From Leptotrichia sp. oral taxon 223 (GTDB lineage: Bacteria; Fusobacteriota; Fusobacteriia; Fusobacteriales; Leptotrichiaceae): a stretch of 64,000 nt of DNA. A program made the position numbers and the translations under genes. Positions 647 through 56,978 of this stretch are shown piece after piece. Numbering within the stretch: the stretch's first letter is position 1; every line of letters starts with the position of its first letter. The notes below the pieces were generated by a model. That model was given only the letters and a program-made list of their open reading frames with translations, had not been told where the DNA came from and did not search any database. The stretch lies in NCBI RefSeq assembly GCF_013394795.1, contig NZ_JABXYU010000004.1:1-64000 (forward strand), given 5' to 3'.

Positions 647-662
647 AAAGTGAGGAAAAGAA

Positions 663-2455: not shown

Positions 2456-2649
2456 GCCTTGCCGTGCGGACTGTCTGCCGATTGGTGTGGCAATAGCCAC
2501 GCCAGCACTTAACCCCCCGTATCTAACAGGGGGGTACAAATCGACAGGAAACAGTCAAAAAAACATTAGAAAATCCTTTGGTTACAAGGGATTTACAAAA
2601 TTTCAGCGTATGTCAAATGGGCTTTAAAAGTTGACATACGCCTTTTTGA
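2456..2649 (+). other. oriT: oriT region between orf21 and orf20
   Basis: In Tn916 the transfer origin maps between orf21 and orf20. Three inverted repeats are visible: 2484-2491 with 2496-2503 (8 pairs, one G-T); six C at 2513-2518 with six G at 2529-2534, spanning a GTATCTAACA loop like the nic-proximal repeat of ICEBs1-type origins; and a perfect 11-base repeat, 2606-2616 with 2631-2641, followed by CTTTTTG, which can also act as a terminator after orf21. The exact nick position is not determined here. Confidence 0.75.
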
Positions 2650-3855
2650 TTGGAGGGATTTTTACTGAATGAACAAACTTGGTTACAGCATTTAAAAGAA
2701 AAACGCTTGGCTTATGGACTATCTCAAAACCGTTTAGCTGTTGCGACTGGTATTACAAGGCAGTATCTAAGCGATATTGAAACAGGAAAAGTCAAGCCAT
2801 CAGAGGATTTACAGCAGTCCCTTTGGGAAGCTCTGGAACGCTTCAATCCCGACGCTCCCCTTGAAATGCTGTTTGATTATGTAAGGATTCGCTTTCCGAC
2901 AACAGACGTACAGCAGGTGGTCGAAAACATCTTACAACTGAAACTGTCCTATTTTCTTCATGAGGACTATGGTTTCTATTCTTATTCAGAGCATTATGCT
3001 TTAGGCGACATATTCGTCCTTTGCTCCCATGAACTGGACAAAGGAGTTCTGGTGGAATTGAAAGGTCGTGGGTGCAGACAATTTGAAAGCTATCTTCTGG
3101 CACAACAAAGAAGCTGGTATGAGTTCTTTATGGACGTTTTGGTGGCTGGCGGTGTGATGAAACGCCTTGACCTTGCCATTAACGATAAGACAGGGATTTT
3201 GAATATCCCTGTACTCACTGAAAAGTGCCAACAGGAAGAATGTATCTCCGTCTTCCGCAGTTTTAAAAGCTATCGCAGTGGCGAACTGGTACGCAAAGAG
3301 GAAAAGGAATGTATGGGAAACACCCTCTATATCGGTTCATTACAAAGTGAAGTTTATTTCTGTATCTATGAAAAGGACTACGAGCAGTACAAGAAAAATG
3401 ATATTCCCATTGAAGACGCAGAAGTAAAAAACCGTTTTGAGATTCGATTGAAAAATGAGCGTGCCTATTATGCAGTCCGTGATTTACTCGTCTATGACAA
3501 TCCAGAGCATACCGCCTTTAAAATTATCAATCGGTATATCCGTTTTGTAGATAAAGACGATTCCAAACCTCGTTCTGATTGGAAACTGAATGAAGAATGG
3601 GCTTGGTTTATTGGGAACAATCGTGAACGATTAAAACTAACCACAAAACCAGAGCCTTACTCCTTCCAAAGGACGCTGAACTGGCTATCTCATCAAGTTG
3701 CCCCGACCTTAAAGGTTGCGATTAAACTTGATGAAATCAACCAGACGCAGGTTGTAAAAGACATTCTCGACCATGCGAAACTGACAGACCGACACAAGCA
3801 GATTTTGAAGCAACAGTCAGTAAAAGAACAGGACGTGATAACAACAAAAAAATAA
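2650..3855 (+). CDS. orf20: Orf20, MobT-type relaxase / replication initiator
   Basis: Up to 401 residues. An N-terminal helix-turn-helix of Xre type (about residues 20-60, 'LSQNRLAVATGITRQYLSDIETGK') precedes a Rep_trans-type replication initiation domain. It nicks oriT and starts rolling-circle replication and transfer; in Tn916 the nicking specificity is helped by Int. The start is unusual: there is no in-frame ATG. GGAGGG (2652-2657) overlaps a TTG at 2650, and a CTG at 2665 sits at better spacing, so translation may begin at 2665 and give 396 residues. The gene is intact and lies directly after oriT. Confidence 0.9.
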   Translation: MEGFLLNEQTWLQHLKEKRLAYGLSQNRLAVATGITRQYLSDIETGKVKPSEDLQQSLWEALERFNPDAPLEMLFDYVRIRFPTTDVQQVVENILQLKLSYFLHEDYGFYSYSEHYALGDIFVLCSHELDKGVLVELKGRGCRQFESYLLAQQRSWYEFFMDVLVAGGVMKRLDLAINDKTGILNIPVLTEKCQQEECISVFRSFKSYRSGELVRKEEKECMGNTLYIGSLQSEVYFCIYEKDYEQYKKNDIPIEDAEVKNRFEIRLKNERAYYAVRDLLVYDNPEHTAFKIINRYIRFVDKDDSKPRSDWKLNEEWAWFIGNNRERLKLTTKPEPYSFQRTLNWLSHQVAPTLKVAIKLDEINQTQVVKDILDHAKLTDRHKQILKQQSVKEQDVITTKK

Positions 3856-3897
3856 CTCAAATACAAATTCATTGAATATAGAGAGGAGAACATTTTT

Positions 3898-4119
3898 ATG
3901 AATTTTGGACAAAACCTTTATAACTGGTTTCTATCAAACGCTCAATCACTGGTGCTTTTAGCAATCGTTGTGATTGGCTTGTATCTTGGCTTCAAGCGTG
4001 AGTTTAGCAAACTGATTGGCTTTTTAATTATTGCGATTATTGCGGTTGGCTTAGTCTTCAACGCTGCTGGAGTAAAAGACATTTTACTAGAGCTATTCAA
4101 TCGCATTATTGGTGCTTAA
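3898..4119 (+). CDS. orf19: Orf19, small membrane conjugation protein
   Basis: 73 residues with two hydrophobic segments (about 18-35 and 39-58) separated by a basic KREFSK loop. It corresponds to Tn916 Orf19, a small membrane component of the mating channel, probably a TcpB-like or pilus-less core part; the exact role is not known. AGAGGAG lies 8 bases before the ATG. The gene is intact. Confidence 0.85.
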   Translation: MNFGQNLYNWFLSNAQSLVLLAIVVIGLYLGFKREFSKLIGFLIIAIIAVGLVFNAAGVKDILLELFNRIIGA

Positions 4120-4235
4120 ATAAAACCGTTCTTTTGTGGAATATAAGTGGTTTTCTTATGTTCCGCAAAGGAATGGTACACCAAACGAAGTGCGGTAGGG
4201 ATTTTTGAATCTCTACAAAGAAAGGACGTGAATAT

Positions 4236-4733
4236 ATGGACGATATGCAAGTCTATATTGCGAATTTAGGCAAATACAATGAGGGCGAATTGGTCGGTGC
4301 GTGGTTTACCTTTCCCATTGACTTTGAGGAAGTCAAAGAGAAAATCGGCTTGAATGATGAATATGAGGAATACGCCATTCATGACTACGAGTTACCCTTT
4401 ACGGTTGACGAATACACTTCCATTGGCGAACTCAATCGACTATGGGAAATGGTATCGGAATTACCCGAAGAATTACAATCGGAGCTATCTGCTCTGCTCA
4501 CTCATTTTTCAAGCATTGAAGAACTAAGCGAACATCAAGAGGATATTATCATTCATTCCGATTGTGATGATATGTATGACGTGGCACGCTACTACATTGA
4601 AGAAACGGGTGCTTTAGGCGAAGTACCAGCTAGTCTTCAAAACTATATTGATTATCAAGCCTATGGTCGGGATTTAGACCTTTCAGGAACGTTTATCTCA
4701 ACCAATCATGGGATTTTTGAAATCGTCTATTAA
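4236..4733 (+). CDS. ardA: Orf18, ArdA antirestriction protein
   Basis: 165 residues, extremely acidic (Asp and Glu dominate, for example 'EELQSELSALL' and 'SDCDDMYD'). ArdA is an elongated dimer that mimics bent B-form DNA and blocks type I restriction enzymes, so incoming single-stranded then duplex Tn916 escapes restriction in a new host. The length matches Tn916 Orf18. AAAGGACG stands before the ATG. Its carriage fits an element that has moved from a Firmicute-like donor into this host. Confidence 0.93.
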   Translation: MDDMQVYIANLGKYNEGELVGAWFTFPIDFEEVKEKIGLNDEYEEYAIHDYELPFTVDEYTSIGELNRLWEMVSELPEELQSELSALLTHFSSIEELSEHQEDIIIHSDCDDMYDVARYYIEETGALGEVPASLQNYIDYQAYGRDLDLSGTFISTNHGIFEIVY

Positions 4734-4821
4734 ATCTGTCGGTACATTACTACTGGCAGATTTTCTATTTTACGGGGTGGCTCAATCAGCTACCCCTATT
4801 TTTTATGAAAGGATTGATTAC

Positions 4822-5214
4822 ATGAAGAAAATACGAAGCTATACCAGTATCTGGTCTGTGGAAAAGGTACTGTATTCTATCAATGATTTTAGACTTCCGT
4901 TTCCCATAACCTTTACGCAAATGACATGGTTTGTCGTGTCACTCTTTGCAGTGATGATACTTGGCAACTTGCCCCCTCTTTCCATGATAGAGGGAGCATT
5001 TCTCAAATACTTTGGGATTCCTGTGGCTTTCACATGGTTTATGTCTACAAAAACTTTTGATGGTAAAAAGCCTTATGGATTTTTGAAGTCTGTCATTGCT
5101 TATGCACTGCGACCAAAGCTGACCTATGCAGGAAAAAAAGTAACGCTTGGCAGAAACCAGCCACAAGAAGCCATTACAGCAGTTAGGAGTGAATTTTATG
5201 GCATATCCAATTAA
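4822..5214 (+). CDS. orf17: Orf17, TcpE-family membrane protein
   Basis: 130 residues from ATG 4822, which has GAAAGGA 8 bases upstream; the frame is open back to an ATG at 4708 inside ardA, but that start lacks a ribosome site and overlaps ArdA. Two hydrophobic segments lie around residues 35-55 and 62-78. TcpE-family proteins are membrane parts of the Gram-positive mating channel. The gene is intact and overlaps orf16 by 17 bases. Confidence 0.87.
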   Translation: MKKIRSYTSIWSVEKVLYSINDFRLPFPITFTQMTWFVVSLFAVMILGNLPPLSMIEGAFLKYFGIPVAFTWFMSTKTFDGKKPYGFLKSVIAYALRPKLTYAGKKVTLGRNQPQEAITAVRSEFYGISN

Positions 5215-7640
5215 ATACATTGAAAACAATCTCGTCTGGAATAAAGACGGGGAATGTTATGCTTACTATGAGCTTGTTCCTTACAATTACTCATTTCTAA
5301 GTCCAGAACAGAAAATACAAGTGCATGATTCTTTCAGACAGCTTATCGCACAAAATCGTGATGGCAAAATTCATGCTTTACAAATCAGTACAGAATCCAG
5401 CATACGTTCTGCACAAGAGCGTTCCAAAAATGAAGTCACTGGCAAGCTCAAAGCGGTTGCCTATGACAAAATCGACCAACAGACAGACGCTTTAATATCC
5501 ATGATTGGCGAAAATCAAGTGAACTACCGTTTCTTTATCGGCTTTAAGTTGCTTCTCAACGATCAGGAGTTTTCTATGAAAAGTCTTACCGTTGAAGCAA
5601 AAAATGCTTTGTCTGATTTTGTCTATGATGTGAACCATAAGCTGATGGGCGATTTTGTTAGTATGAGTAATGATGAAATCCTGCGTTTTCAGAAGATGGA
5701 AAAGCTCTTAGAAAATAAAATCTCTCGTCGTTTCAAAATCCGCAGGTTAGATAAGGACGACTTCGCTATCTGATTGAACACCTTTACGGACAGACAGGCA
5801 CTGCCTATGAAGAGTATGAGTACCATCTATCAAAGAAAAAGCTGGATAATGAAACGCTGATTAAATACTATGACTTGATTAAGCCTACTCGCTGTTTGGT
5901 GGAAGAAAAACAGCGATATTTGAAAATCCAGCAGGAAGATGAAACCGTCTATGTAGCTTACTTTACCAATTAACAGCATTGTCGGAGAACTGGACTTCCC
6001 GTCCTCTGAAATCTTCTACTACCAGCAACAGCAATTTACATTCCGATTGATACGTCAATGAATGTGGAAATTGTAGCGAATCGTAAAGCCCTATCTACTG
6101 TCCGCAATAAAAAGAAAGAACTGAAAGACTTGGATAACCACGCTTGGCAAAGTGATAATGAAACCAGCTCCAATGTGGCGGAAGCTCTGGAAAGTGTGAA
6201 TGAGCTGGAAACCAATTTAGACCAAAGCAAGGAATCTATGTACAAGCTGTCTTATGTGGTAAGGGTATCAGCAAATGATCTTGACGAACTCAAACGTCGT
6301 TGTAATGAAGTGAAAGATTTTTATGACGATTTAAGCGTAAAACTGGTACGACCATTTGGGGATATGCTCGGCTTACATGAAGAATTTTTACCTGCCAGCA
6401 AGCGTTATATGAATGATTATATTCAATACGTGACCTCTGATTTCCTCGCTGGTTTAGGTTTTGGTGCTACTCAAATGCTGGGGGAAATGAGGGGATTTAT
6501 GTTGGCTACAGCTTAGATACTGGACGCAATGTCTATCTGAAACCTGCTCTTGCCAGTCAAGGGGTTAAGGGTTCAGTAACCAATGCGTTAGCGTCGGCTT
6601 TTGTTGGTTCGCTGGGTGGTGGTAAATCCTTTGCGAATAACCTTATCGTCTATTATGCGGTGCTTTATGGGGCACAAGCAGTGATTGTAGACCCAAAAGC
6701 AGAACGTGGCAGATGGAAAGAAACCTTGCCAGAGATTTCCCATGAAATCAATATCGTCACTCTGACTTCTGATGAGAAAAACAAAGGCTTACTTGACCCT
6801 TATGTGATTATGAAAAATCCCAAAGATTCTGAATCACTGGCTATTGATATTCTGACATTCCTTACGGGGATTTCCTCTCGTGATGGGGAACGCTTCCCAA
6901 TCCTTAGAAAAGCCATTCGTGCAGTAACCAATAGTGAAGTACGAGGGTTGATGAAAGTGATTGAGGAATTACGGGTTGAGAATACGCCACTAAGTACCAG
7001 TATAGCCGACCATATCGAAAGTTTTACAGACTATGACTTTGCACATTTATTATTCAGTAATGGTTATGTGGAGCAGTCTATCAGCTTAGAAAAACAACTG
7101 AACATTATACAGGTTGCGGACTTGGTACTTCCCGACAAGGAAACTTCCTTTGAGGAATATACCACTATGGAGCTTTTATCCGTTGCTATGCTGATTGTCA
7201 TTAGTACCTTTGCTTTAGACTTTATCCATACAGACCGAAGCATTTTCAAGATTGTAGATTTAGACGAAGCATGGAGCTTTTTACAGGTAGCACAAGGAAA
7301 AACACTATCTATGAAGCTGGTTCGGGCTGGTCGTGCTATGAACGCTGGGGTATATTTCGTGACCCAAAATACAGACGACTCTTAGATGAAAAACTGAAAA
7401 TAACCTCGGCTTAAAATTTGCATTTCGTTCCACTGACCTTAACGAGATTAAAAAGACCTTAGCCTTTTTTGGTGTAGACCAGAGGACGAAAACAATCAGA
7501 AGCGATTGCGTGATTTGGAAAACGGGCAATGCCTTATCAGTGATTTATATGGTCGTGTCGGTGTGATACAGTTCCACCCTGTATTTGAAGAACTGCTCCA
7601 TGCCTTTGATACCAGACCACCTGTGCGAAAAGAGGTGTAA
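5198..7640 (+). pseudogene. orf16: Orf16, VirB4/TcpF-type transfer ATPase, frameshifted
   Basis: Start ATG 5198 has TTAGGAG 9 bases upstream; stop TAA ends at 7640. Seven single-base events break the frame: losses at about 5764 (C), 6044, 6486 (A), 7379 (C), 7400 (A) and 7480 (C), and one gained A at 5968. Correcting them gives 2448 bases, 815 residues, the usual Orf16 length. The product would be the cytoplasmic motor ATPase of the mating channel; Walker A is 'GSLGGGKS' near 6608-6631, and 'VDLDEAWSF' (about 7257-7283) is the Walker B region. As written, the longest piece starts after Walker A (6660-7385), so the gene would be inactive. All losses shorten small homopolymers, which suggests reading error as strongly as mutation. 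Confidence 0.85.
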
Positions 7641-7642
7641 AT

Positions 7643-9810
7643 GTGAAACCATCAATAGTAAACAGAATAAAATCAAACTGGACGCTGAAACGTCTAGGTA
7701 AAGTGGCAATGACAGTGGCTTTCACACTTGTGATTGCCATTTTTCTTTTAGCCATGCTGGGAACGGTGGTTCAAGCTGCGGGCTTGGTAGATGATACGGT
7801 CAATGTGGCAAATGAATACAGCCGATACCCACTTGAAAACTATCAACTGGATTTTATGTGGATAATAGCTGGGGCTGGCTTCCGTGGAACTGGTCGGACG
7901 GGATTGGAAAACAGGTCATGTATGGACTATATGCCATTACCAATTTTATTTGGACAATCAGTTTGTATGTTTCCAATGCGACAGGTTACTTAGTACAGGA
8001 AGCCTATTCCTTAGACTTCATTTCCGCTACAGCAGATTCCATTGGTAAGAATATGCAGACCTTAGCTGGTGTGAGTGCAACGGATTTTCAACAGAGGGTT
8101 TCTATGTTGGATTCCTCTTACTCTTGATTTTGGTTCTTGGGGTTTATGTTGCCTATACGGGACTGATAAAGAGAGAAACCACAAAGGCAATTCATGCCAT
8201 TATGAATTTTGTGCTGGTGTTTATCCTATCGGCTTCCTTTATTGCCTACGCTCCCGACTACATTAAAAAATCAATGACTTTTCATCAGACATCAGTAATG
8301 CCAGTTTATCACTTGGCACGAAGATTGTCATGCCCCATTCCGATAGTCAAGGCAAGGACAGCGTGGACTTAATCAGAGATAGCCTGTTTTCCATACAGGT
8401 TCAGCAACCGTGGCTACTGCTTCAATACAACAGTTCAGACATTGAAAGTATCGGTATTGACCGTGTGGAAAGCCTGCTCTCCACCAGCCAGATTCCAACA
8501 ATGGCGAAGACAGAGAAAAATTGTTGCGGAAGAAATTGAAGACAGAAGCAATACCAATCTAACCATTACAAAGACCATTAACCGTTTAGGTACAGTCTTC
8601 TTCCTATTTGTCTTCAATATTGGGATTTCCATATTGTATTCCTATTAACAGGAATCATGATTTTCTCGCAGGTACTTTTTATCATCTATGCTATGTTTCT
8701 GCCTGTGAGCTTTATTTTAAGCATGATTCCATCATTTGATGGTATGTCAAAACGAGCCATAACAAAGCTCTTTAATACCATTTTGACACGAGCTGGAATC
8801 ACATTGATTATTACGACAGCATTTAGTATTTCAACCATGCTCTATACCTTATCGGCTGGTTATCCGTTCTTTTTGATTGCTTTTCTACAGATTGTGACCT
8901 TTGCAGGAATCTACTTCAAGCTGGGCGATTTAATGAGTATGTTTTCTCTACAGAGTAACGATTCTCAAAGTGTGGGAAGTCGTGTGATGAGAAAACCTCG
9001 TATGCTTATGCACGCTCACATGCACCGTCTACAGCGGAAACTTGGACGTTCCATGACTACTCTAGGGGCTGGGTCTGCCATTGTTACAGGTAAAAAGGAC
9101 AGTCGGGTTCGGGGAGTTCTGCAAGGACACAAGCAGATCACTCCCGACCAGACGGAAAGGAAAAATCAACACTTGGAAAACGTATCGGTCAAACCATCGG
9201 TACAGTAGCTGATACCAAAGACAGAATGGTAGACACTGCTAGTGGTTTGAAAGAACAGGTTAAAGATTTGCCGACCAATGCAAGATATGCAGTATATCAA
9301 GGAAAATCCAAAGTAAAAGAGAATGTCCGTGATTTAACCAGTAGTATTTCTCAAACCAAAGCGGACAGAGCCAGTGGACGCAAGGAACAGCAGGAACAAA
9401 GGCGAAAAACCATTGCGAAGCGTCGCTCTGAAATGGAACAGGTCAAACAGAAAAACAGCCTGCTTCTTCTGTTCATGAAAGACCGACTACAAGACAAGAC
9501 AATATCATGATGAACAGACCTCAAAACAGTCTAATATTCAGACTTCATATAAGGAATCTCAACAAGCCAAACAAGAGCGTCCAGCAGTTAAGTCCGATTT
9601 TTCAAGTCCAAAAGTGGAACGCCAAGGCAATACCGTTCAAGAAAAAACCGTTCAAAGCCAGCAACTTCAACCACTACAGCAGATAGAACTTCACAACGTC
9701 CAATCACAAAAGAACGTCCGTCTACTGTTCAAAGAGTACCACTACAAAATACAAGAAGTAGACCACCAATCAAAACCGCCACCATTAAGAAAGTCGGTAA
9801 GAAACCATGA
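7643..9810 (+). pseudogene. orf15: Orf15, VirB6/TcpH-like polytopic channel protein, frameshifted
   Basis: GTG start 7643, stop TGA at 9810. Ten single-base losses break it: near 7855 (T), 8080 (A), 8270 (A), 8489 (C), 8520 (A), 8635 (T), 9098 (G), 9455 (A), 9506 (C) and 9659 (C). Restoring all ten gives 2178 bases, 725 residues. The protein would have several membrane segments in its first 450 residues and a long polar, glutamine- and lysine-rich tail. It is expected to form the inner part of the mating channel and to anchor the Orf14 hydrolase. Every event is a loss from a run of two to seven equal bases (9506 is CC to C). It overlaps orf14 by ATGA. Confidence 0.85.
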
Positions 9811-10808
9811 AGTTGAAAACTTTAGTGATTGGTGGTTCTGGATTATTCTTGATGGTCTTCTCACTGCTTCTGTTTGTTGCCATTTTATTTTCAGATGAAC
9901 AGGACAGCGGAATTTCCAATATTCATTATGGAGGTGTGAATGTTTCCGCAGAAGTGCTGGCTCATAAGCCTATGGTAGAAAAATATGCCAAAGAATATGG
10001 CGTTGAAGAATATGTCAACATACTTCTTGCGATTATACAGGTGGAATCGGGCGGTACTGCGGAAGATGTTATGCAGTCCTCGGAATCCCTCGGTCTTCCA
10101 CCTAATTCATTGAGTACAGAAGAATCCATTAAGCAAGGTGTGAAGTATTTCAGTGAATTATTAGCCAGTAGCGAAAGGCTCAGTGTAGATTTAGAATCGG
10201 TTATCCAGTCCTACAATTATGGTGGTGGTTTCTTAGGGTATGTGGCTAATCGTGGAAATAAATATACCTTTGAACTGGCTCAAAGTTTCTCAAAAGAGTA
10301 TTCAGGTGGCGAAAAAGTGTCTTACCCCAATCCCATAGCCATACCTATCAATGGGGGCTGGCGATACAACTATGGCAATATGTTTTATGTGCAACTGGTA
10401 ACGCAGTATCTTGTCACAACAGAGTTTGATGATGATACGGTACAAGCCATCATGGACGAAGCACTGAAATATGAGGGCTGGCGATACGTTTACGGTGGAG
10501 CTTCCCCGACTACTTCTTTTGATTGTAGCGGACTGACACAATGGACGTATGGAAAAGCTGGAATTAACTTACCACGAACCGCACAACAGCAATATGATGT
10601 GACCCAGCATATCCCACTATCGGAAGCACAAGCTGGCGATTTGGTTTTCTTTCATTCTACCTATAACGCTGGCTCTTATATTACTCATGTTGGGATATAC
10701 CTTGGCAATAACCGTATGTTTCATGCAGGCGACCCAATCGGTTATGCCGACTTAACAAGCCCCTACTGGCAACAGCATTTAGTGGGAGCAGGACGAATCA
10801 AACAATGA
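9807..10808 (+). CDS. orf14: Orf14, bifunctional cell-wall hydrolase (CwlT-like)
   Basis: 333 residues, intact. One N-terminal membrane anchor (about 8-28) leads to a lysozyme/SLT-type domain with the catalytic glutamate in 'QVESGG' (about residue 80) and 'SYNYGGG'. A C-terminal NlpC/P60 peptidase follows, with cysteine in 'FDCSG' (about 240) and histidine in 'THVG' (about 293). It cuts the glycan strand and peptide stem to open the wall for the mating channel. Its intactness between two frameshifted neighbours is notable. In a thin-walled diderm host its use is unclear. Confidence 0.93.
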   Translation: MKLKTLVIGGSGLFLMVFSLLLFVAILFSDEQDSGISNIHYGGVNVSAEVLAHKPMVEKYAKEYGVEEYVNILLAIIQVESGGTAEDVMQSSESLGLPPNSLSTEESIKQGVKYFSELLASSERLSVDLESVIQSYNYGGGFLGYVANRGNKYTFELAQSFSKEYSGGEKVSYPNPIAIPINGGWRYNYGNMFYVQLVTQYLVTTEFDDDTVQAIMDEALKYEGWRYVYGGASPTTSFDCSGLTQWTYGKAGINLPRTAQQQYDVTQHIPLSEAQAGDLVFFHSTYNAGSYITHVGIYLGNNRMFHAGDPIGYADLTSPYWQQHLVGAGRIKQ

Positions 10809-11737
10809 GAAAGGAAGATTTAATGATGAAATTTAGAAAAAATCAGAATAAAGAAAAACAGATACCAAAGGAAAAGAAACCTCGTGTCTACTATAAGGTC
10901 AATCCTCATAAAAAGGTTGTGATTGCCTTGTGGGTACTTTTAGGGCTTAGTTTCAGCTTTGCGATATTCAAGCACTTTACAGCTATAGATACTCATACTA
11001 TTCACGAAACAACTATCATAGAAAAGGAATACGTTGATACTCATCATGTAGAAATTTTGTAGAGAACTTTGCGAAGTCTACTATTCATGGGAGCAATCCG
11101 ATAAGTCCATTGATAATCGAATGGAAAGTCTAAAAGGCTATCTGACAGATGAACTTCAAGCTCTCAATGTTGATACAGTACGCAAAGATATTCCTGTATC
11201 GTCTTCTGTAAGAGGATTTCAGATATGGACGGTAGAGCCAACTGGCGACAATGAGTTTAATGTAACCTACAGTGTAGACCAGCTCATTACAGAGGGAGAA
11301 AATACAAAGACCGTCCACTCTGCTTATATAGTGAGTGTCTATGTAGATGGTTCTGGAAATATGGTACTGGTTAAGAATCCGACCATTACCAACATACCTA
11401 AGAAATCAAGTTATAAACCAAAAGCCATTGAAAGTGAGGGGACGGTTGATTCCATTACAACCAATGAAATCAATGAGTTTTTAACGACGTTCTTCAAGCT
11501 CTATCCTACAGCGACAGCCAGTGAACTTTCCTACTATGTGAATGACGGGATATTAAAACCAATCGGAAAAGAGTACATCTTTCAAGAACTGGTAATCCTA
11601 TTCACAATCGTAAGGATAATCAAGTCACGGTATCGCTGACAGTGGAGTATATCGACCAGCAGACCAAAGCAACGCAGGTATCTCAATTTGATTTGGTACT
11701 TGAAAAGAACGGGAGTAATTGGAAGATTATAGAATAA
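10805..11737 (+). pseudogene. orf13: Orf13, TcpC/VirB8-like channel protein, frameshifted
   Basis: ATG 10805 overlaps the end of orf14 by ATGA. One membrane segment lies near residues 38-58, then two NTF2-like periplasm-facing domains (TcpC family). Three single-base losses break the frame: one A near 11054, one A near 11075 and one A near 11595. With them restored the gene is 936 bases, 311 residues, as in Tn916. As written, translation stops at 11062. TcpC-type proteins are essential for channel assembly, so a real break would block transfer. Confidence 0.85.
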
Positions 11738-11806
11738 CAAATATTGGTACATTATTACAGCTATTTTGTAATCACGTACTCTCTTTGATAAAAAATTGGA
11801 GATTCC

Positions 11807-11835
11807 TTTACAAATATGCTCTTACGTGCTATTAT
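11807..11835 (+). promoter_or_regulatory. tet(M) promoter
   Basis: The -35 box TTTACA (11807-11812), a 17-base spacer and the -10 box TATTAT (11830-11835) match the known Tn916 tet(M) promoter arrangement. It drives the leader peptide and tet(M), and in Tn916 read-through from here reaches orf7, orf8, xis and int. Confidence 0.7.
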
Positions 11836-11866
11836 TTAAGTATCTATTTAAAAGGAGTTAATAAAT

Positions 11867-11890
11867 ATGCGGCAAGGTATTCTTAAATAA
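11867..11890 (+). CDS. orf12: tet(M) leader peptide (MRQGILK end of orf12)
   Basis: ATG 11867 follows AAAAGGAG at good spacing and codes for MRQGILK then stop. In Tn916 translation of this leader couples tetracycline-stalled ribosomes to read-through of terminators before tet(M). Here only about 68 bases separate its stop from the tet(M) start, against well over 200 in Tn916 as I remember it. What remains is a 4-pair hairpin, 11926-11929 with 11934-11937, followed by TTTT. Confidence 0.6.
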   Translation: MRQGILK

Positions 11891-11958
11891 ACTGTCAATT
11901 TGATAGTGGGAACAAATAATTGGATGCCCTTTTGGGCTTTTGAATGGAGGAAAATCAC

Positions 11959-13876
11959 ATGAAATTATTAATATTGGAGTTTTAGCTCATGTTGATGCAG
12001 GAAAAACTACCTTAACAGAAAGCTTATTATATAACAGTGGAGCGATTACAGAATTAGGAAGCGTGGACAAAGGTACAACGAGGACGGATAATACGCTTTT
12101 AGAACGTCAGAGAGGAATTACAATTCAGACAGGAATAACCTCTTTTCAGTGGGAAAATACGAAGGTGAACATCATAGACACGCCAGGACATATGGATTTC
12201 TTAGCAGAAGTATATCGTTCATTATCAGTTTTAGATGGGGCAATTCTACTGATTTCTGCAAAAGATGGCGTACAAGCACAAACTCGTATATTATTTCATG
12301 CACTTAGGAAAATGGGGATTCCCACAATCTTTTTTATCAATAAGATTGACCAAAATGGAATTGATTTATCAACGGTTTATCAGGATATTAAAGAGAAACT
12401 TTCTGCCGAAATTGTAATCAAACAGAAGGTAGAACTGTATCCTAATATGTGTGTGACGAACTTTACCGAATCTGAACAATGGGATACGGTAATAGAGGGA
12501 AACGATGACCTTTTAGAGAAATATATGTCCGGTAAATCATTAGAAGCATTGGAACTCGAACAAGAGGAAAGCATAAGATTTCAGAATTGTTCCCTGTTCC
12601 CTGTTTATCACGGAAGTGCAAAAAACAATATAGGGATTGATAACCTTATAGAAGTGATTACGAATAAATTTTATTCATCAACACATCGAGGTCAGTCTGA
12701 ACTTTGCGGAAAAGTTTTCAAAATTGAGTATTCGGAAAAAAGACAGCGTCTTGCATATATACGTCTTTATAGTGGCGTACTGCATTTGCGAGATTCGGTT
12801 AGAATATCGGAAAAGGAAAAAATAAAAATTAAAGAAATGTATACTTCAATAAATGGTGAATTATGTAAAATCGATAAGGCTTATTCCGGGGAAATTGTTA
12901 TTTTGCAGAATGAGTTTTGAAGTTAAATAGTGTTCTTGGAGATACAAAGCTATTGCCACAGAGAGAGAGAATTGAAAATCCCCTCCCTCTGCTGCAAACG
13001 ACTGTTGAACCGAGCAAACCTCAACAAAGGGAAATGTTACTTGATGCACTTTTAGAAATCTCCGACAGTGACCCGCTTCTGCGATATTATGTGGATTCTG
13101 CGACACATGAAATCATACTTTCTTTCTTAGGGAAAGTACAAATGGAAGTGACTTGTGCTCTGCTGCAAGAAAAGTATCATGTGGAGATAGAAATAAAAGA
13201 GCCTACAGTCATTTATATGGAAAGACCGTTAAAAAAAGCAGAGTATACCATTCACATCGAAGTTCCACCGAATCCTTTCTGGGCTTCCATTGGTCTATCT
13301 GTAGCACAGCTTCCATTAGGGAGCGGAGTACAGTATGAGAGCTCGGTTTCTCTTGGATACTTAAATCAATCGTTTCAAAATGCAGTTATGGAGGGGATAC
13401 GCTATGGCTGTGAACAAGGATTGTATGGTTGGAATGTGACGGACTGTAAAATCTGTTTTAAGTATGGCTTATACTATAGCCCTGTTAGTACCCCAGCAGA
13501 TTTTCGGATGCTTGCTCCTATTGTATTGGAACAAGTCTTAAAAAAAGCTGGAACAGAATTGTTAGAGCCATATCTTAGTTTTAAAATTTATGCGCCACAG
13601 GAATATCTTTCACGAGCATACAACGATGCTCCTAAATATTGTGCGAACATCGTAGACACTCAATTGAAAAATAATGAGGTCATTCTTAGTGGAGAAATCC
13701 CTGCTCGGTGTATTCAAGAATATCGTAGTGATTTAACTTTCTTTACAAATGGACGTAGTGTTTGTTTAACAGAGTTAAAAGGGTACCATGTTACTACCGG
13801 TGAACCTGTTTGCCAGCCCCGTCGTCCAAATAGTCGGATAGATAAAGTACGATATATGTTCAATAAAATAACTTAG
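11959..13876 (+). pseudogene. tet(M): tet(M) ribosomal protection protein, two frameshifts
   Basis: Tet(M) is an EF-G-like GTPase that removes tetracycline from the ribosome. The normal start ATG 11959 follows TGGAGG, but one A is missing from the run at 11962-11964 (codons 2-3). A second loss, one T in 12915-12918, splits the gene after about residue 319. Restoring both gives 1920 bases, exactly 639 residues. Visible motifs: 'AHVDAGKTT' (P-loop), 'DTPGHMDF' (G3) and 'NKIDQNG' (G4). As written, the first part could start only from a TTG at 11940 and would stop at 12920, leaving a G domain without the tip domains. Either the resistance is lost or the read is wrong. Confidence 0.92.
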
Positions 13877-13976
13877 TGTATTTTATGTTGTTATATAAAT
13901 ATGGTTTCTTGTTAAATAAGATGAAATATTTTTTAATAAAGATTTGAATTAAAGTGTAAAGGAGGAGATAGTTATT

Positions 13977-14162
13977 ATAAACTACAAGTGGATATTGTGT
14001 CCTGTATGTGGAAATAAAACACGATTAAAGATAAGGGAAGATACTGAATTAAAAAAATTCCCCCTCTATTGTCCGAAATGCAGACAAGAAAATTTAATTG
14101 AAATAAAGCAGTTCAAAGTAACTGTGATTACAGAGCCAGACGCAAAGACGCAGAGCCGATAA
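13977..14162 (+). CDS. orf6: Orf6, small Cys-rich KTR-motif protein
   Basis: Sixty-one codons with no ATG: AAAGGAGGAG lies 8-12 bases ahead of a cluster of non-standard starts (GTT, ATT, ATA at 13971-13979), so initiation is probably at an ATA or ATT codon near 13974-13977. Two CxxC pairs ('CPVCGNKTR' and 'CPKCRQ') suggest a small zinc ribbon. It follows tet(M) as in Tn916 and ends inside the first arm of the terminator. The function is unknown. Confidence 0.7.
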   Translation: MNYKWILCPVCGNKTRLKIREDTELKKFPLYCPKCRQENLIEIKQFKVTVITEPDAKTQSR

Positions 14163-14196
14163 AATGAGATTAATACAATCTCATTTTATCGGCTCT
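14152..14196. terminator. Strong bidirectional terminator between orf6 and orf9
   Basis: Twenty-base perfect arms (14152-14171 and 14177-14196) enclose the loop AATAC. The arms end in AAAAT/ATTTT-rich steps and serve the tet(M)-orf6 transcript and the converging orf9 transcript. The stop codon of orf6 is inside the left arm. Confidence 0.85.
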
Positions 14197-14221
14197 TTCC
14201 GTTATGTATGGATTCTTTTAA

Positions 14222-14575
14222 TTAGTCTTCGATGTTTCTTGCTTCGTTGATACCGCTGGCTAAAGATTCCATTAAGGATAGTTCTTTGTCTGTAAAGCTA
14301 TCCATGTATTTCTCTATCTGTAATCGTCGGGTGCTTTTTACCAAGTTATTAGCAGGTAAGAAAAATTCATCAACGGAAACATGAAGTAACGATACAAGGT
14401 CATAAAGAACTTGTATGCTGGGGTGTTGCCCTTTATTTTCAATATTAGTTAAGTACCGTGGGTCAATTTCAATCAATGCTCCCACTTGTTCACGAGTTAA
14501 ACCTCGTTTCAATCGAGCTTCTTTAATGGCTAAACCAAAGGCTCTAAAATCATATTTATCTTCTTTTTTACGCAT
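14222..14575 (-). CDS. orf9: Orf9, Xre-family repressor of Tn916 transfer regulation
   Basis: 117 residues with an N-terminal helix-turn-helix (about 20-50, '[24 protein letters not shown]'). In Tn916 Orf9 lies convergent to tet(M) and is thought to lower transcription of orf7 and orf8, which activate excision and transfer. AGAGGTGG precedes the start. The gene is intact, with normal length. Confidence 0.9.
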
Positions 14576-14732
14576 AGTAGACCACCTCTATACATTTTAT
14601 TGTTCCTACTGAATTAAAAACAGGTATAGAAAAACGTGTTATATGGTTTATAGGTTTATATTTAATAAAAAGCACTACTAAACGCCAATAAAAAAAACCG
14701 TTATATGGTAGTGCTATTTACGCTGTTAAAAT

Positions 14733-14800
14733 ATTGTATATTACTTCCAAATGGCGGTTTGTTGGAGGTCAACGTCGCCATGAAGTACATCATATACAAT
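14733..14800. other. Long nested hairpin in the orf9-orf7 intergenic region
   Basis: Four nested arm pairs are seen: 14733-14741 with 14792-14800, 14742-14747 with 14782-14787, 14752-14756 with 14776-14780, and 14761-14764 with 14770-14773. The segment between orf9 and orf7 (14576-15079) has no gene I can support. It carries the divergent promoters of orf9 and orf7, and this 68-base structure may act as an operator or as an RNA element in the orf7 leader. Confidence 0.55.
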
Positions 14801-15079
14801 AAATTTCCTTACATTGGGTTCTTGTCAAAAAAAGTCGTCTATCTGCAATAGATAAGTACGTCCACCAATGTGGTTTTATAAATCATATAGATAGAATAAC
14901 AGAAGCATGTAAACAGAGAAATAAATCTGTTTATATGCTTTTTTGGCTATTCAGAACTTTTTTACAAAGTTTATTTATCAGTAATGCAACAAATCCCCCT
15001 TTCACATTGGGACTAAGAGTGAAAGGAGATAAACGAGCAAGGCTCACTTCCTTTCCTAGACAGAAAGGGGGTGAGAAAC

Positions 15080-15502
15080 ATGAAACCATCTTCTTTTCAG
15101 ACCACAATAGAAAATCAGTTTGACTATATCTGTAAACGTGCTATGGAAGACGAGCGAAAGAATTATATGCTTTATCTTTCAAGGATTGCAAAGCGTGAGG
15201 TGTCCTTTTCGGATGTTGGCGATTATCTTGTTAGCCAGTTTGCGACAACAGATAACTATTCAACTGACTTTCAGATTTTTACACTCAATGGGTTATCAGT
15301 AGGCGTTGAAAATGATTTGTTGAGTGAAGCATTACGTGAGTTGCCAGACAAGAAACGTGAAATTCTACTGCTGTTTTACTTTATGGACATGAGCGATTCA
15401 GAAATTGCAGACCTGTTGAAATTGAACCGTTCTACTGTCTATCGGCATAGAACCAGTGGACTAGCCTTAATTAAAAAGTTTATGGAGGAATTTGAAGAAT
15501 GA
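15080..15502 (+). CDS. orf7: Orf7, sigma-70-region-4-like transfer regulator
   Basis: 140 residues from ATG 15080 (AAAGGGGGTG 6 bases upstream; an ATG at 15071 overlaps that site and is less likely). The C-terminal part, 'LPDKKREILLLFYFMDMSDSEIADLLKLNRSTVYRHRTS', is a sigma region 4 helix-turn-helix. In Tn916 Orf7 and Orf8 are positive regulators made by read-through from tet(M); they boost their own promoter and expression of xis and int. The gene overlaps orf8 by 4 bases (ATGA). Confidence 0.9.
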   Translation: MKPSSFQTTIENQFDYICKRAMEDERKNYMLYLSRIAKREVSFSDVGDYLVSQFATTDNYSTDFQIFTLNGLSVGVENDLLSEALRELPDKKREILLLFYFMDMSDSEIADLLKLNRSTVYRHRTSGLALIKKFMEEFEE

Positions 15503-15729
15503 AAACACAATATCCTATGATTCCCTTTCCTCTCATTGTAAAGGCAACAGATGGCGATACCGAAGCGATTAACCAGATTCTACATCATTACAGAGGGTAC
15601 ATAACGAAGCGTTCCCTACGACTTATGAAAGATGAATATGGCAATCAAAGTATGGTCGTTGATGAAGTCTTACGTGGAAGAATGGAAACCAGACTGATTA
15701 CAAAGATTTTGTCATTTGAAATTAAGTAA
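15499..15729 (+). CDS. orf8: Orf8, helix-turn-helix partner of Orf7
   Basis: 76 residues, starting inside the last codons of orf7, so translation is probably coupled. The N-terminal 'LIVKATDGDTEAINQILHHYRGYITKRS' resembles the Orf8-type helix-turn-helix domain of Tn916 elements, similar to sigma region 2 fragments. It acts with Orf7 to turn on the excision genes. Intact and full length. Confidence 0.88.
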   Translation: MKTQYPMIPFPLIVKATDGDTEAINQILHHYRGYITKRSLRLMKDEYGNQSMVVDEVLRGRMETRLITKILSFEIK

Positions 15730-15839
15730 TATCCTCTCTCCTTTCGTGGAAGCGTGCTAAACCATTCCACGCTTCCCGAACAGGGAGGTTTGTTATTCCA
15801 CCAAAGCATATTGAGCTTTCAATGTGTTTTGATAGGCTA

Positions 15840-16150
15840 ACGAGCCATTGTTCTTTGAAAACTGAATAAAAGTAATCGAATACGTTTCGATAAGAAAAGA
15901 GCCAACGGAACTAACCGCCATGACCTATCTTATAAAGATAGCGAGCGATTCATGTTAGTGATCCGAGAAGCAATCTTTAGCAGGATTGCCTGCAACGACA
16001 TTCTTATCGTGATAATGATACTCCCATACAGTCAATAGTCCGAGCGTGATAAAACCGTCGCAGGCAATGAGTATGGCTACATGAGAACCATGCAGGGGTG
16101 GAACTCCCGTGAGCTTTGCTAAAGCTGTTCGATTGCTGGTAAAACAACTT
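15840..16150 (+). other. Gene-free, strongly structured segment between orf8 and xis
   Basis: The 460-base gap 15730-16189 has no plausible gene. It shows dense pairing: 15910-15915 plus 15919-15923 with 15950-15959 (bulge CGC), an inner hairpin CTATCTT/AAGATAG, a local hairpin GCAATC (15970-15975) with GATTGC (15984-15989), arms 15888-15896 with 16001-16009, and 15985-15993 with 16060-16068. The last two sets interleave, so they could form a pseudoknot or alternate. This looks like a structured leader RNA for xis-int; the role is inference. Confidence 0.5.
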
Positions 16151-16189
16151 TTATGAAATCCAAATAAGTGATTTGGAAAGGAGGATTTT

Positions 16190-16393
16190 ATGAAGCAGAC
16201 TGACATTCCTATTTGGGAACGTTATACCCTAACCATTGAAGAAGCGTCAAAATATTTTCGTATTGGCGAAAACAAGCTACGACGCTTGGCAGAGGAAAAT
16301 AAAAATGCAAATTGGCTGATTATGAATGGCAATCGTATTCAGATTAAACGAAAACAATTTGAAAAAATTATAGATACATTGGACGCAATCTAG
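16190..16393 (+). CDS. xis: Xis, excisionase of Tn916
   Basis: 67 residues, the exact Tn916 Xis length. It is a small winged-helix MerR-like DNA-binding protein ('[25 protein letters not shown]') that bends DNA near both ends and favours excision over integration by Int. AAAGGAGG lies 7 bases upstream. It is followed after 81 bases by int. Intact. Confidence 0.95.
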
Positions 16394-16474
16394 CGTCGCC
16401 AAAGGGTCTTGTATATGATAAAATAGTATTAAGTCGTATCAAGGCTCTTTCCATAAAGGAAAGGAGCAAATGCC

Positions 16475-17692
16475 ATGTCAGAAAAAAGACGTGACAATAA
16501 AGGTCGAATCTTAAAGACTGGAGAGAGCCAACGAAAAGACGGAAGATACTTATACAAATATATAGATTCATTTGGAGAACCGCAATTTGTTTACTCGTGG
16601 AAACTTGTGGCTACAGACCGAGTACCAGCAGGAAAGCGTGATTGTATCTCACTTAGAGAGAAAATCGCAGAGTTACAGAAAGACATTCATGATGGTATTG
16701 ATGTTGTAGGAAAGAAAATGACACTCTGCCAGCTTTACGCAAAACAGAACGCTCAAAGACCAAAGGTTAGAAAAAACACTGAAACTGGACGCAAATATCT
16801 TATGGATATTTTGAAGAAAGACAAGTTAGGTGTAAGAAGTATTGACAGTATTAAGCCATCAGACGCTAAAGAATGGGCTATTAGAATGAGTGAAAATGGT
16901 TATGCTTATCAAACCATCAATAACTACAAACGTTCTTTAAAGGCTTCATTCTATATTGCTATACAAGATGATTGTGTTCGGAAGAATCCATTTGACTTTC
17001 AACTGAAAGCAGTTCTTGATGATGATACTGTCCCTAAGACCGTACTAACAGAAGAACAGGAAGAAAAACTGTTAGCCTTTGCAAAAGCTGATAAAACCTA
17101 CAGCAAAAATTATGATGAAATTCTGATACTCTTAAAAACAGGTCTTCGTATTTCAGAGTTTGGTGGTTTGACACTTCCAGATTTAGATTTTGAGAATCGT
17201 CTTGTCAATATAGACCATCAGCTATTGAGAGATACTGAAATTGGGTACTACATTGAAACACCAAAGACCAAAAGTGGCGAACGTCAAGTTCCTATGGTTG
17301 AAGAAGCCTATCAAGCATTTAAGCGAGTGTTAGCGAATCGAAAGAATGATAAGCGTGTTGAGATTGATGGATATAGTGATTTCCTCTTTCTTAATAGAAA
17401 GAACTATCCAAAAGTGGCAAGTGATTACAACGGCATGATGAAAGGTCTTGTTAAGAAATACAATAAGTATAACGAGGATAAATTGCCACACATCACTCCA
17501 CATAGTTTGCGACATACATTCTGTACCAACTATGCAAATGCAGGAATGAATCCAAAGGCATTACAGTACATTATGGGACATGCTAATATAGCCATGACGC
17601 TGAACTATTACGCACATGCAACATTCGATTCTGCAATGGCAGAAATGAAACGCTTGAATAAAGAGAAGCAACAGGAGCGTCTTGTTGCTTAG
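16475..17692 (+). CDS. int: Int, tyrosine recombinase of Tn916
   Basis: 405 residues, full length. The N-terminal arm-binding domain (about 1-75) precedes a core-binding domain and the catalytic domain, with arginine in 'GLRISEF' (225), 'HSLRHTF' (His and Arg near 345-348), 'MGHANI' and the nucleophile tyrosine in 'LNYYAHAT' (about 379). It cuts and joins the ends with 6-base coupling sequences and prefers AT-rich bent targets, which suits this host. AAAGGAG precedes the start. The gene is intact, so excision remains possible even if transfer does not. Confidence 0.96.
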   Translation: MSEKRRDNKGRILKTGESQRKDGRYLYKYIDSFGEPQFVYSWKLVATDRVPAGKRDCISLREKIAELQKDIHDGIDVVGKKMTLCQLYAKQNAQRPKVRKNTETGRKYLMDILKKDKLGVRSIDSIKPSDAKEWAIRMSENGYAYQTINNYKRSLKASFYIAIQDDCVRKNPFDFQLKAVLDDDTVPKTVLTEEQEEKLLAFAKADKTYSKNYDEILILLKTGLRISEFGGLTLPDLDFENRLVNIDHQLLRDTEIGYYIETPKTKSGERQVPMVEEAYQAFKRVLANRKNDKRVEIDGYSDFLFLNRKNYPKVASDYNGMMKGLVKKYNKYNEDKLPHITPHSLRHTFCTNYANAGMNPKALQYIMGHANIAMTLNYYAHATFDSAMAEMKRLNKEKQQERLVA

Positions 17693-36048: not shown

Positions 36049-36966
36049 CTAAACACTAGAAATTACTACAGTTTTTATTTTTTTTATTACCTCATAGCCT
36101 TCATTAATCATAACTCCCCATATAAGATTAACATGCTTATCTTTTATAACATCTGAAATTCTCTCTGTTATCTGTCCAATATCCGCAAGTGATACATTTC
36201 TCCCCGTAGTAAAATTTATCAAAACTTTTTTTGCATTTTCCAATTTTCCCTCAAACAGATTATTTTTCATAAGCTGCTCCATTATCTTGTCAACTGCATT
36301 ATCCCCCTTGCCTTCTCCAACCCGAATAGTCGTATCCTTTGAATTATGCAAAACAGCTTTCACATCTAATAAATCAATATTCATAAATCCAACTTCCGTC
36401 AGAATATTTACAATACTTTCAATGCCTTCCTTTATAATCTCGTTGACTTTAGCATAGGCCACTTCAAGCGGTTCTTTCCTATCTATGTGATTATACAATT
36501 TTTCGTTAGGAATAACAATCAGGCTATCCGTAATTTTCTCAATTTTTTTCATCCCAGTATTGGCAATTTTCAACGTTTCAAACCCTTCCAGATAAAATGG
36601 ACGTGCAACAATACTAATAGTAAAAATGCCCAATTTTTTTGCAACTTCAAGAATAATAGGCAGTATTCCGCTTCCAGTAGCCCCGCCAATTCCTGAAACT
36701 AAAAATAAAATATCTGTACCTTTAATCAATTCCCGAAATTGATTTTCACACTGAAATGCCACTCTTTCAGCCTGTTCCCTAGTGCATTCCTTAACTCCAG
36801 TATCCAAAAAGATCTTTTTTTCTGCTCTGCTAAAATTAGAGTTCCTGTTATCCGTATCAATCGTTATATATTCTATTTTCCGCACATTTGAAGCTATCAT
36901 AAAATTAACAAAATTTATCCCCATCCCGCCAATTCCAATAACTTTCATACTCATTTTATCCTTCAT
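36049..36966 (-). CDS. FtsZ-like tubulin-family GTPase, divergent
   Basis: Up to 305 residues; AAGGA stands 4 bases before an in-frame ATG at 36954, so 301 is also likely. It has an FtsZ-like start ('KVIGIGGMGINFVN'), a tubulin signature loop altered to 'GIGGATGSG' (92-100, FtsZ usually GGGTGTG) and a T7-like 'MNIDLLDVKAVL' keeping the catalytic aspartate. It lacks the long linker and C-terminal tail peptide of division FtsZ and does not lie in a division gene cluster. It may be a second tubulin homologue or the diverged FtsZ of this lineage; the genome elsewhere would decide. Confidence 0.82.
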   Translation of the reverse strand: MKDKMSMKVIGIGGMGINFVNFMIASNVRKIEYITIDTDNRNSNFSRAEKKIFLDTGVKECTREQAERVAFQCENQFRELIKGTDILFLVSGIGGATGSGILPIILEVAKKLGIFTISIVARPFYLEGFETLKIANTGMKKIEKITDSLIVIPNEKLYNHIDRKEPLEVAYAKVNEIIKEGIESIVNILTEVGFMNIDLLDVKAVLHNSKDTTIRVGEGKGDNAVDKIMEQLMKNNLFEGKLENAKKVLINFTTGRNVSLADIGQITERISDVIKDKHVNLIWGVMINEGYEVIKKIKTVVISSV

Positions 36967-37396
36967 GCCAATCCCGCTCTTGCAAATACAAATTATTGCA
37001 AATCTCCCTTCTATTGAAAATATTTAACTTTGAAATTAATTTTTTGTTTATAGGTATATTTTAGCAGATTAGAGGGGGTATTTCAAGGGAGAGAATCTAA
37101 TTATGAAGTAAAAAAATATTAATTTTATAATTTATTTAATTGTTTCGTTATTTCATTACTACTTTTATTTTTCTTTGATAAAATTCTTTATACTAAAATA
37201 GTTAAAAGCAAACTGCATAACATTACATTATTTTTACCTTTCACAATTTATAAATTTTATATTCTTACTTTTAAAAGTATACCTCAAAAATTCAATTTTT
37301 CAAATTTTATAATACTTAAGACAGAATAAAAATTTAAACCATAAATAATTTGAATAAAACAAAAAAGGAATACCTAAAAGATACTCCTCTCATACA
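36967..37396. other. AT-rich intergenic region
   Basis: No gene seen. At about 37363-37388 a GGAGTA/TATTCC hairpin followed by T residues (leftward) probably ends the transcript of the gene above. The remainder is AT-rich and featureless to me. Confidence 0.5.
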
Positions 37397-56186: not shown

Positions 56187-56380
56187 AGATAGATAGATTT
56201 TCTTCTTTTGAAGAATCAAAAATACAGGTGTTCCACCACCTTTAAGTGAAGGATCTAAAAATACAGGTGTTCCGCCACCTTTAAGTGAAGGATCTAAAAA
56301 TACAGGTGTTCCGCCACCTTTAAGTGAAGGATCTAAAAATACAGTAAGCTACCATTTTGTTTTGGTAGCTTTTTTATAGG
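56187..56380 (+). ncRNA. toxI-like: ToxI-like antitoxin RNA, 39-base tandem repeats
   Basis: Anchor AATACAG recurs at 56221, 56260, 56299 and 56338, a constant period of 39 bases: three full units and a partial fourth. Unit 1 differs from 2 and 3 by A for G (TTCCACC versus TTCCGCC). Each unit has AGGTG and CACCT that can pair around a 6-base loop, and the sequence GAAGGATCT ends it. In type III systems the toxin cuts the repeat array into single units, each of which binds and inhibits a toxin monomer in a closed RNA-protein ring. A terminator separates the array from the toxin gene. Confidence 0.88.
56346..56376 (+). terminator. Attenuating terminator between antitoxin RNA and toxin gene
   Basis: AAGCTACCA (56346-56354) pairs with TGGTAGCTT (56363-56371), then T residues. 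Such leaky terminators set the RNA-to-toxin ratio in type III loci. Confidence 0.88.
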
Positions 56381-56387
56381 GGGAAAA

Positions 56388-56978
56388 ATGAAATATAAAA
56401 ATTATGAGGAGTTACACTTATTTGAAATTAATGATAATTATATAAATTATTTGCAGAAATTTGACAAACATATTCTAAATTTTTCTGGAAAAAAATATAA
56501 AACTTCACGAAAATATTTAGGTATTTTACTAAAAATAAACGACTGTAATTATTTTGCTCCATTATCATCTCCAAGCAAAAAATTTGATTATGATTTAAAT
56601 GGAAATTTAAGAAAGTCAATTATTCCACTAATAAGAATGGTTAGAATAACAAATACTGGAAAACAGGATTTTTTAGGAACTATAAAACTCGGATCCATGA
56701 TTCCTGTTTTTAATAATTCACTTATGAGATACTACGATTTGACATTAGAATCGGATATAAAATACAAAAAAATGGTTCAAAAGCAGCTAACCTTTATTTT
56801 GAAGAATAAAGAACTGATTTTAAGAAATGCTAATAAACTTTATAGACAAAAAAATTCAAATATGTCTATGGGTTATATAAAAAATACTGTTAATTTTGAA
56901 TTACTGGAAGAAAAAGCAAAACTGTATTTACATAATAAATTTACCAAGTTCAAAAAAACAACCAAAAATTCTTTTTAA
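56388..56978 (+). CDS. toxN-like: ToxN/AbiQ-family type III endoribonuclease toxin
   Basis: 196 residues. 'NYINYLQKFDKHI', then 'SRKYLGILLKI' and 'YFAPLSSPSKKF' (Pro58-Leu-Ser-Ser-Pro62) match the ToxN fold, in which the Thr/Ser-Ser pair before Pro is at the active site. 'KYKKMVQKQLTFILKNKELILRNANKLYRQK' corresponds to the helical C-terminal part of ToxN. GGGGG lies 5 bases before the ATG. The fold is a compact RNase related to Kid/MazF; family members abort phage infection. The tail beyond 'NSNMSMGYIKNTVNFELLEEKAKLY' is a little longer than in the founding ToxN. Which of the ToxIN, CptIN or TenpIN groups it belongs to cannot be decided by eye. Confidence 0.9.
   Translation: MKYKNYEELHLFEINDNYINYLQKFDKHILNFSGKKYKTSRKYLGILLKINDCNYFAPLSSPSKKFDYDLNGNLRKSIIPLIRMVRITNTGKQDFLGTIKLGSMIPVFNNSLMRYYDLTLESDIKYKKMVQKQLTFILKNKELILRNANKLYRQKNSNMSMGYIKNTVNFELLEEKAKLYLHNKFTKFKKTTKNSF

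Follow-up and report, generated by a model that had tools for sequence, protein, structure and literature searches.

In chloroplasts and archaea, labour is divided between two FtsZ types, FtsZ1 and FtsZ2, which are ancient GTP-competent partners; the protein described here, hereafter W, differs from these pairs in being a probable Leptotrichia-lineage duplicate without a T3 loop. The FtsZ/tubulin superfamily also has divergent members such as FtsZl1/FtsZl-2 (Tubulin_2, PF13809), CetZ and TubZ, which W resembles in being divergent itself; unlike FtsZl1/FtsZl-2, however, W matches PF00091 and FtsZ_C, and PF13809 was absent among its Pfam matches at E values up to 1. In Agrobacterium tumefaciens, three FtsZ homologues are described in the excerpted text of PMC13170164, of which only Atu2086 carries a linker and CTP. 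The other two are like W in being extra copies without linker or tail beside an essential full-length FtsZ, but they belong to a different phylum and are likened to W by description, not by sequence. Tail-less FtsZ paralogues are therefore already known, while the loss of T3 with T7 retained, together with a series of copies in one genus, appears to be new. A literature search over titles and abstract openings returned nothing on Leptotrichia FtsZ copies, a result that speaks for the one library searched rather than for absence in print.

The S. aureus FtsZ structures, in the excerpted account of PMC8936486, have a composite active site, with N208, D210 and D213 of the T7 loop reaching the nucleotide of the next subunit, and with D46, Q48, G72 and R143 on the nucleotide side handling the ions, water and gamma-phosphate. 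In this excerpt, assembly was stopped by the D46A, R143Q, N208L, D210N and D213N changes, and was allowed by Q48A and R143K with a GTPase activity about six-fold lower (PMC8936486).

The gene for W lies in the window, that is, the whole stretch of 64,000 nucleotides analysed here, which belongs to an assembly of 2.58 Mb in 4 contigs at 99% completeness. Among named relatives, the nearest one found is Leptotrichia sp. oral taxon 879 (85% protein identity). The reading frame, from ATG to stop, fills its span exactly (Table 1). Its product passes the Pfam cut-offs for the GTPase domain (PF00091, 97.1 bits, cut-off 33) and for FtsZ_C (PF12327, 49 bits, cut-off 27) and falls below that of the NCBIfam FtsZ equivalog TIGR00065 (213.7 bits, cut-off 295.2), and profile alignment gives 33% identity with canonical FtsZ. 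W is classed here as an FtsZ-derived paralogue, apart from FtsZ itself. The two have in common the whole fold, most of the P-loop glycines, the base contacts and the T7 catalytic residues, but W is without the linker, tail, T3, Q48 and R143, carries GGATGSG in place of GGGTGTG, scores below the equivalog cut-off, lies outside the division cluster and is one of several copies.

Table 1. Position of the W gene, the loops of its product and its candidate promoter in the window
Feature	Position	Strand	Remarks
W, FtsZ-derived paralogue without C-terminal linker or tail peptide	36049..36966	(-)	305 aa
T1 loop GIGGMGIN, residues 11-18	36913..36936	(-)	G20, G21, N25 equivalents in 14/14
T3 loop remnant LDTGVKECT, residues 54-62	36781..36807	(-)	five-residue deletion, G70-A71-G72 gone
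T4 signature loop GIGGATGSG, residues 92-100	36667..36693	(-)	
T5 loop ARPFYLEGFET, residues 121-131	36574..36606	(-)	E139 equivalent present, R143 equivalent lost in 14/14
T7 (synergy) loop GFMNIDLLDVK, residues 193-203	36358..36390	(-)	N208, D210, D213 equivalents in 14/14
Candidate W promoter, TTGAAA, 17 nt, TAAAAT with TG	37058..37086	(-)	consensus scan

Three PF00091 matches were found in this genome, namely canonical FtsZ on contig C1, W on C4 and a further copy, T, on C1. The canonical ftsZ, which a sequence-only reading of this DNA had advised looking for, is therefore present, along with W and two further FtsZ-like genes; it encodes 373 aa and adjoins frames resembling FtsQ/DivIB and MurB. 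The same reading was right to place W, which lies in the window on C4, away from the division genes, and the possibility it had reserved, that W is the only normal FtsZ of its clade, does not hold beside a canonical ftsZ. Its suggestion of a new tubulin paralogue stands as far as an extra copy beside canonical ftsZ is concerned, but that copy, by its sequence, derives from FtsZ and does not form a separate tubulin family.

To describe the residues we used B. subtilis FtsZ numbering over 14 W, 10 T, 9 U, 10 V and 54 Fusobacteriota FtsZ rows, where U and V are the other FtsZ-like copies discussed below. Residues N196, D198 and D201 of W correspond to N208, D210 and D213 in the B. subtilis/S. aureus numbering, and the retention of the T7 aspartates claimed by the earlier reading is borne out in all 14 orthologues. 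The GIGGATGSG loop it had pointed to is likewise found, at residues 92-100. The canonical T4 signature GGGTG(S/T)G is not matched by the GGATGSG of W, in which the third glycine has become alanine in 11 of the 14 orthologues and serine in the other three; G104, G106, G107, G110 and G112 are retained throughout, as are E139, N166 and the Asn of column 187 (14/14 each). Judging from the alignments, the main change in W is the deletion of the T3 loop, which the earlier reading had overlooked: profile alignment to solved FtsZ leaves a five-residue gap there, and residues 70-72 are missing in 14/14 W proteins, these being GAG in 54/54 Fusobacteriota FtsZ rows. R/K143 is also lost in 14/14 (R or K in 54/54 FtsZ rows), Q48 is lost in 14/14, and D46 has changed to Asn in 4/14. 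Among the canonical proteins themselves, the FtsZ of Leptotrichia and of genome G014 has Lys at position 143 in 14/14 (L001, L005-L016, L042), the replacement with which the GTPase of the S. aureus protein falls about six-fold, and the other Fusobacteriota FtsZ rows have Arg there in 35/40.

Thus, the T7 donor residues of W are intact in the residue table, and its acceptor half is damaged at the gamma-phosphate. The loss is not one-sided over the protein as a whole, since W retains 21/33 FtsZ-invariant columns in the nucleotide loops and 9/16 in T7 plus the C-terminal domain (Fisher p 0.76). The C-terminal domain has much diverged (67/154 cells retained), and given this divergence the bottom interface of W may be altered too. 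Within the W clade, T1, T5 and T7 are less variable than average (p 0.003, 0.043 and 0.047; seven loops tested, uncorrected), and the constrained P-loop suggests that the top face is still in use. Two cysteines, C61 in the T3 remnant (36784-36786) and C73 (36748-36750), are invariant in 14/14 W proteins, 12 of which have no cysteine beyond these two; no cysteine occupies either column in the 54 Fusobacteriota FtsZ rows.

The W orthologues are 302-322 aa long, and all 14 stop as soon as the final FtsZ strand is complete, so that the missing linker and tail peptide noted by the sequence-only reading are indeed absent. The canonical FtsZ proteins of the same 14 genomes have 368-395 aa and end in the tail FV(L/V)PPFF(E/Q)E (14/14). 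SepF was found in 33/33 Leptotrichiaceae genomes and FtsA (SHS2_FTSA) in 0/33, and from these profile searches it appears to be SepF that anchors FtsZ in this family. Since W has no tail and SepF was the sole anchor found in searches for FtsA and SepF, W is without a recognised membrane route of its own.

An AlphaFold2 model of W built from nine sequences has the complete fold (pLDDT 89.1, pTM 0.89) and superimposes on S. aureus FtsZ with a Z score of 39.6 and an rmsd of 2.1 over 301 residues. This model is not an independent test, because the other eight alignment rows are FtsZ or W relatives; prediction from the single sequence gave a pLDDT of 39.9. A VIA-align search with the model returned FtsZ alone among the 50 matches listed, and is not informative on other families. 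In the model a helix spans residues 63-72, with C61 and C73 at its opposite ends.

Among 33 Leptotrichiaceae genomes, W is present in 13/13 genomes of the genus, each of which also has a canonical ftsZ, and in G014 of a sister genus, and it is absent from most of the other genera. The tie to long filamentous cells that the sequence-only reading had raised finds no support in this distribution. Its neighbours in the window are genes for a DUF5362 protein, an unassigned membrane protein, ThiF, an ATP-grasp protein and an esterase, and the DUF5362-family cluster is convergent to W in 10 of the 14 W loci. W is probably a single-gene unit, because it has a candidate promoter of its own, from a consensus scan that is weak in itself (31 found against 23.3 expected), and because a terminator-like stem (37391-37363) follows the upstream gene. 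No genomic link to division genes was seen across the 14 W loci, and in the window none of the genes next to W could be recognised as a defence gene, the other 13 loci having been compared by gene cluster only. An Rfam search over 35000-58000 gave no match. Elsewhere in the window, a complete-looking type III toxin-antitoxin module occupies 56209-56978 on the forward strand, where ToxN (PF13958, 117.9 bits) comes after 3.5 copies of a 39-nt repeat. By ORF reading, positions 1-17692 resemble a Tn916-type conjugative element with FtsK/relaxase-like, conjugation and integrase frames, in which a TetM-like gene runs over two overlapping frames (11940-13876) and a VirB4-like gene is broken up over several.

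At least two PF00091 matches occur in 33 of 98 Fusobacteriota genomes, or in 31 of 98 without G015 and G091. The 20.8-bit match in G015 was not accepted as FtsZ, since its ORF, which lies in a conjugation cluster, reads like a VirB11-type ATPase, and the two matches in G091, on separate profile halves at contig ends, were taken for one gene that the assembly has split. Tail-less second FtsZ proteins are also found outside Leptotrichiaceae, in the genera g13 (314-332 aa, 9 loci fetched) and g19/g24 (317-321 aa, 4 loci; together L069-L081), but unlike W they have the GxG of T3 and R/K143 in 13/13. Viral contigs searched with W gave no match, and a plasmid search gave FtsZ-like matches below 60% identity in 116 records, several of the 20 listed being chromosome-sized.

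Phylogenetic trees were built from FtsZ-family rows only, with no CetZ, TubZ or tubulin rows; the smaller trees omit ten long-branch FtsZ rows, four odd rows (PX, Z2), V and most of the near-copies. W forms one clade, with support 99/92 in the 101-row tree and 100/100 in the 52-row tree with FtsZ alone, and in the latter it joins 19 Leptotrichia-lineage FtsZ with weak support (58/78). In quick trees, T+U join the Leptotrichia-lineage FtsZ at 88 and W+T+U at 92 (SH-aLRT). A basal joining of W with P13 (from g13) and P19 (from g19/g24) in the 101-row tree was read as a probable artefact of long-branch attraction. Kinship of P13 and P19 with the FtsZ of their own genera is not rejected (AU p 0.46 and 0.27), and duplication has therefore likely taken place separately in two families. 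An origin of W from Leptotrichia-lineage FtsZ is thus most likely, favoured by these trees at weak to moderate support without being proven. W has the appearance of vertical inheritance, with a G006/G008/G009 group common to the W and FtsZ trees.

Median dN/dS values (Nei-Gojobori, pairs with dS 0.05-1.5) are 0.142 for W (67 pairs), 0.124 for FtsZ (91 pairs), 0.206 for T (44 pairs) and 0.445 for U (28 pairs, from eight of the nine U genes). W is under purifying selection. The alternative offered by the sequence-only reading, a rapidly evolving FtsZ, is not sustained, as within the genus the dN/dS of W nearly equals that of FtsZ and its divergence, as seen in the trees, is on the stem branch. 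U was probably exchanged between species, since its dS is 0.09-0.14 where that of FtsZ is 0.3-0.6 (pairs listed); no such drop is seen in W. On the sequences compared, W is an FtsZ duplicate fixed in Leptotrichia, open and conserved in its 14 carrier genomes, and as a conserved extra copy beside a full FtsZ, without linker or tail, it has the features of a lineage-specific tail-less FtsZ paralogue.

Judged by its residues, W is one of several half-dead FtsZ copies that occur in Leptotrichia. T (325 aa) and U (282 aa) flank a ToxN gene on contig C1 of G000 (L065:7026-9691). U (C1:1082025-1082873), which was found by protein comparison over the fetched loci, scores 24.1 bits with PF00091 and 56.3 bits with FtsZ_C. 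T is present in 10/13 genus genomes; U is present at 87-100% identity in 9/13, while G001 has a copy at 64% and G010 a remnant, and no U was seen in either G006 or G009. The two stand at one locus in eight genomes, with a ToxN-cluster gene between them in five of these; the one such gene tested matches PF13958, and 39-nt tandem repeats lie upstream in G000. The third copy, V (235 aa), has a profile match to the T7 and C-terminal half of FtsZ (probability 97.7%); FtsZ_C is above its cut-off in the 46% relative of V in G007 and below it in V itself. Eight genomes, with another genus represented among them, carry a full-length V at 92% identity or more; V is broken in G003 and absent from G000, and was not found in phages, plasmids or viral contigs.

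The FtsZ-invariant columns retained in the nucleotide loops and in T7 plus the C-terminal domain are, respectively, 15/33 and 16/16 for T (p 0.0001), 8/33 and 10/16 for U (p 0.013), and 2/33 and 5/16 for V (p 0.03). N208 is present in 10/10 T, 9/9 U and 1/10 V, D210 in 10/10, 8/9 and 10/10, and D213 in 10/10, 9/9 and 9/10. By these columns, T, U and V have lost most of the GTP pocket and retained the T7 aspartates. The cassette around V consists of an unassigned protein, a WYL regulator, V and a nuclease-like protein (L129:6441-10574 and equivalents in L130-L138), the last matching PDDEXK_4 or, weakly, Mrr (one of each tested). It occurs at differing genomic places and adjoins T in G006. PADLOC gave a strong match for the WYL protein only, and from its gene content, its placement and the identity of V, which exceeds 90% between genera, the cassette looks like a mobile defence island.

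How might W act? The reading that we prefer, at a probability of roughly 40%, is that W, a tail-less and T3-less FtsZ duplicate, caps or paces FtsZ filaments via its T7 face. W would still bind guanine nucleotide, and its reading or hydrolysis of the gamma-phosphate would not be normal. The T7 face would dock on a canonical FtsZ filament at the end where the nucleotide is exposed and give its catalytic aspartates to the FtsZ below, and the next subunit would find in W only a poor acceptor face. Without a tail W could not be tethered by SepF, and it may thus be a soluble subunit that caps filament ends or sets their pace, so limiting or timing the assembly of the Z-ring. The reading follows from the damaged acceptor face and the lack of a tail for SepF, and the one-sided pattern of T and U in the same genome, with T7 present and the nucleotide face lost, was counted for it; our confidence goes no higher because the C-terminal domain has diverged and the P-loop is still constrained. 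Such a cap would be like SulA, MciZ and Gp0.4 in occupying one FtsZ interface. Those three, however, are small and unrelated proteins and bind to the T7 face (PMC13423816, excerpt); W is itself an FtsZ and would bind the opposite, nucleotide face.

The main rival, which we regard as somewhat unlikely, makes W a second self-sufficient FtsZ, a T3-independent self-polymer with a separate cytoskeletal job like that of CetZ or plasmid TubZ. A W-W interface is conceivable with most P-loop glycines, the base contacts and T7 invariant in 14/14, and the separate locus, probable own promoter and low dN/dS also agree with it, but the loss of R/K143 in every orthologue and the D46 to Asn change in four speak against self-polymerisation, as R143Q or D46A blocks assembly of the S. 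aureus protein (PMC8936486, excerpt). We give little credence to W as a redox- or metal-gated FtsZ regulator, whose switch would be the two invariant cysteines, one of them at the gamma-phosphate position; their exclusive conservation in W favours such a gate, but in the model the helix would hold them too far apart for a direct bond. Decay is hardly tenable, as is the notion that W is a fast-evolving, only FtsZ of the clade: despite its divergence at 33% identity, W is open in 13/13 genus genomes, has a dN/dS of 0.14 and is accompanied by canonical ftsZ in each.

It is about as improbable as the redox or metal gate that W serves as a bait for phage FtsZ inhibitors, displaying its T7 face and thereby sparing FtsZ or reporting on it. 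Phage T7 Gp0.4, like SulA and MciZ, binds the synergy-loop face of FtsZ, and the Gp0.4-FtsZ complex triggers the defence toxin CapRel, according to the excerpted PMC13423816; these two points are the ground for the bait idea in T, U and V, and the neighbourhood of these related copies, with ToxN or WYL-nuclease genes, lends it some appeal for W as well. The idea is nevertheless much weaker for W, which has no recognised defence gene beside it in the window, looks vertically inherited and retains a pocket that a bait would not need. A wider scheme, also unlikely though a little less so, would see in Leptotrichia an FtsZ tool-kit made of an active FtsZ, W as pacer and up to three pocket-dead baits (T, U and V) that display to phage FtsZ inhibitors the T7 face to which these bind and trigger linked effectors, i.e. 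ToxIN between T and U and the WYL-regulated PD-(D/E)XK nuclease cassette around V.

If true, this tool-kit would amount to an integrated-decoy strategy in bacterial form. T, U and V have each lost the GTP pocket while T7 residues stayed, and they lie beside antiphage-type modules, so that the bait idea can be tested directly. Should W indeed cap or pace FtsZ filaments, division would have a regulator derived from FtsZ, and W would be a separation-of-function FtsZ found in nature, with T7 intact and gamma-phosphate sensing gone; it would then serve as a test object for the role of the T3 loop in filament dynamics.
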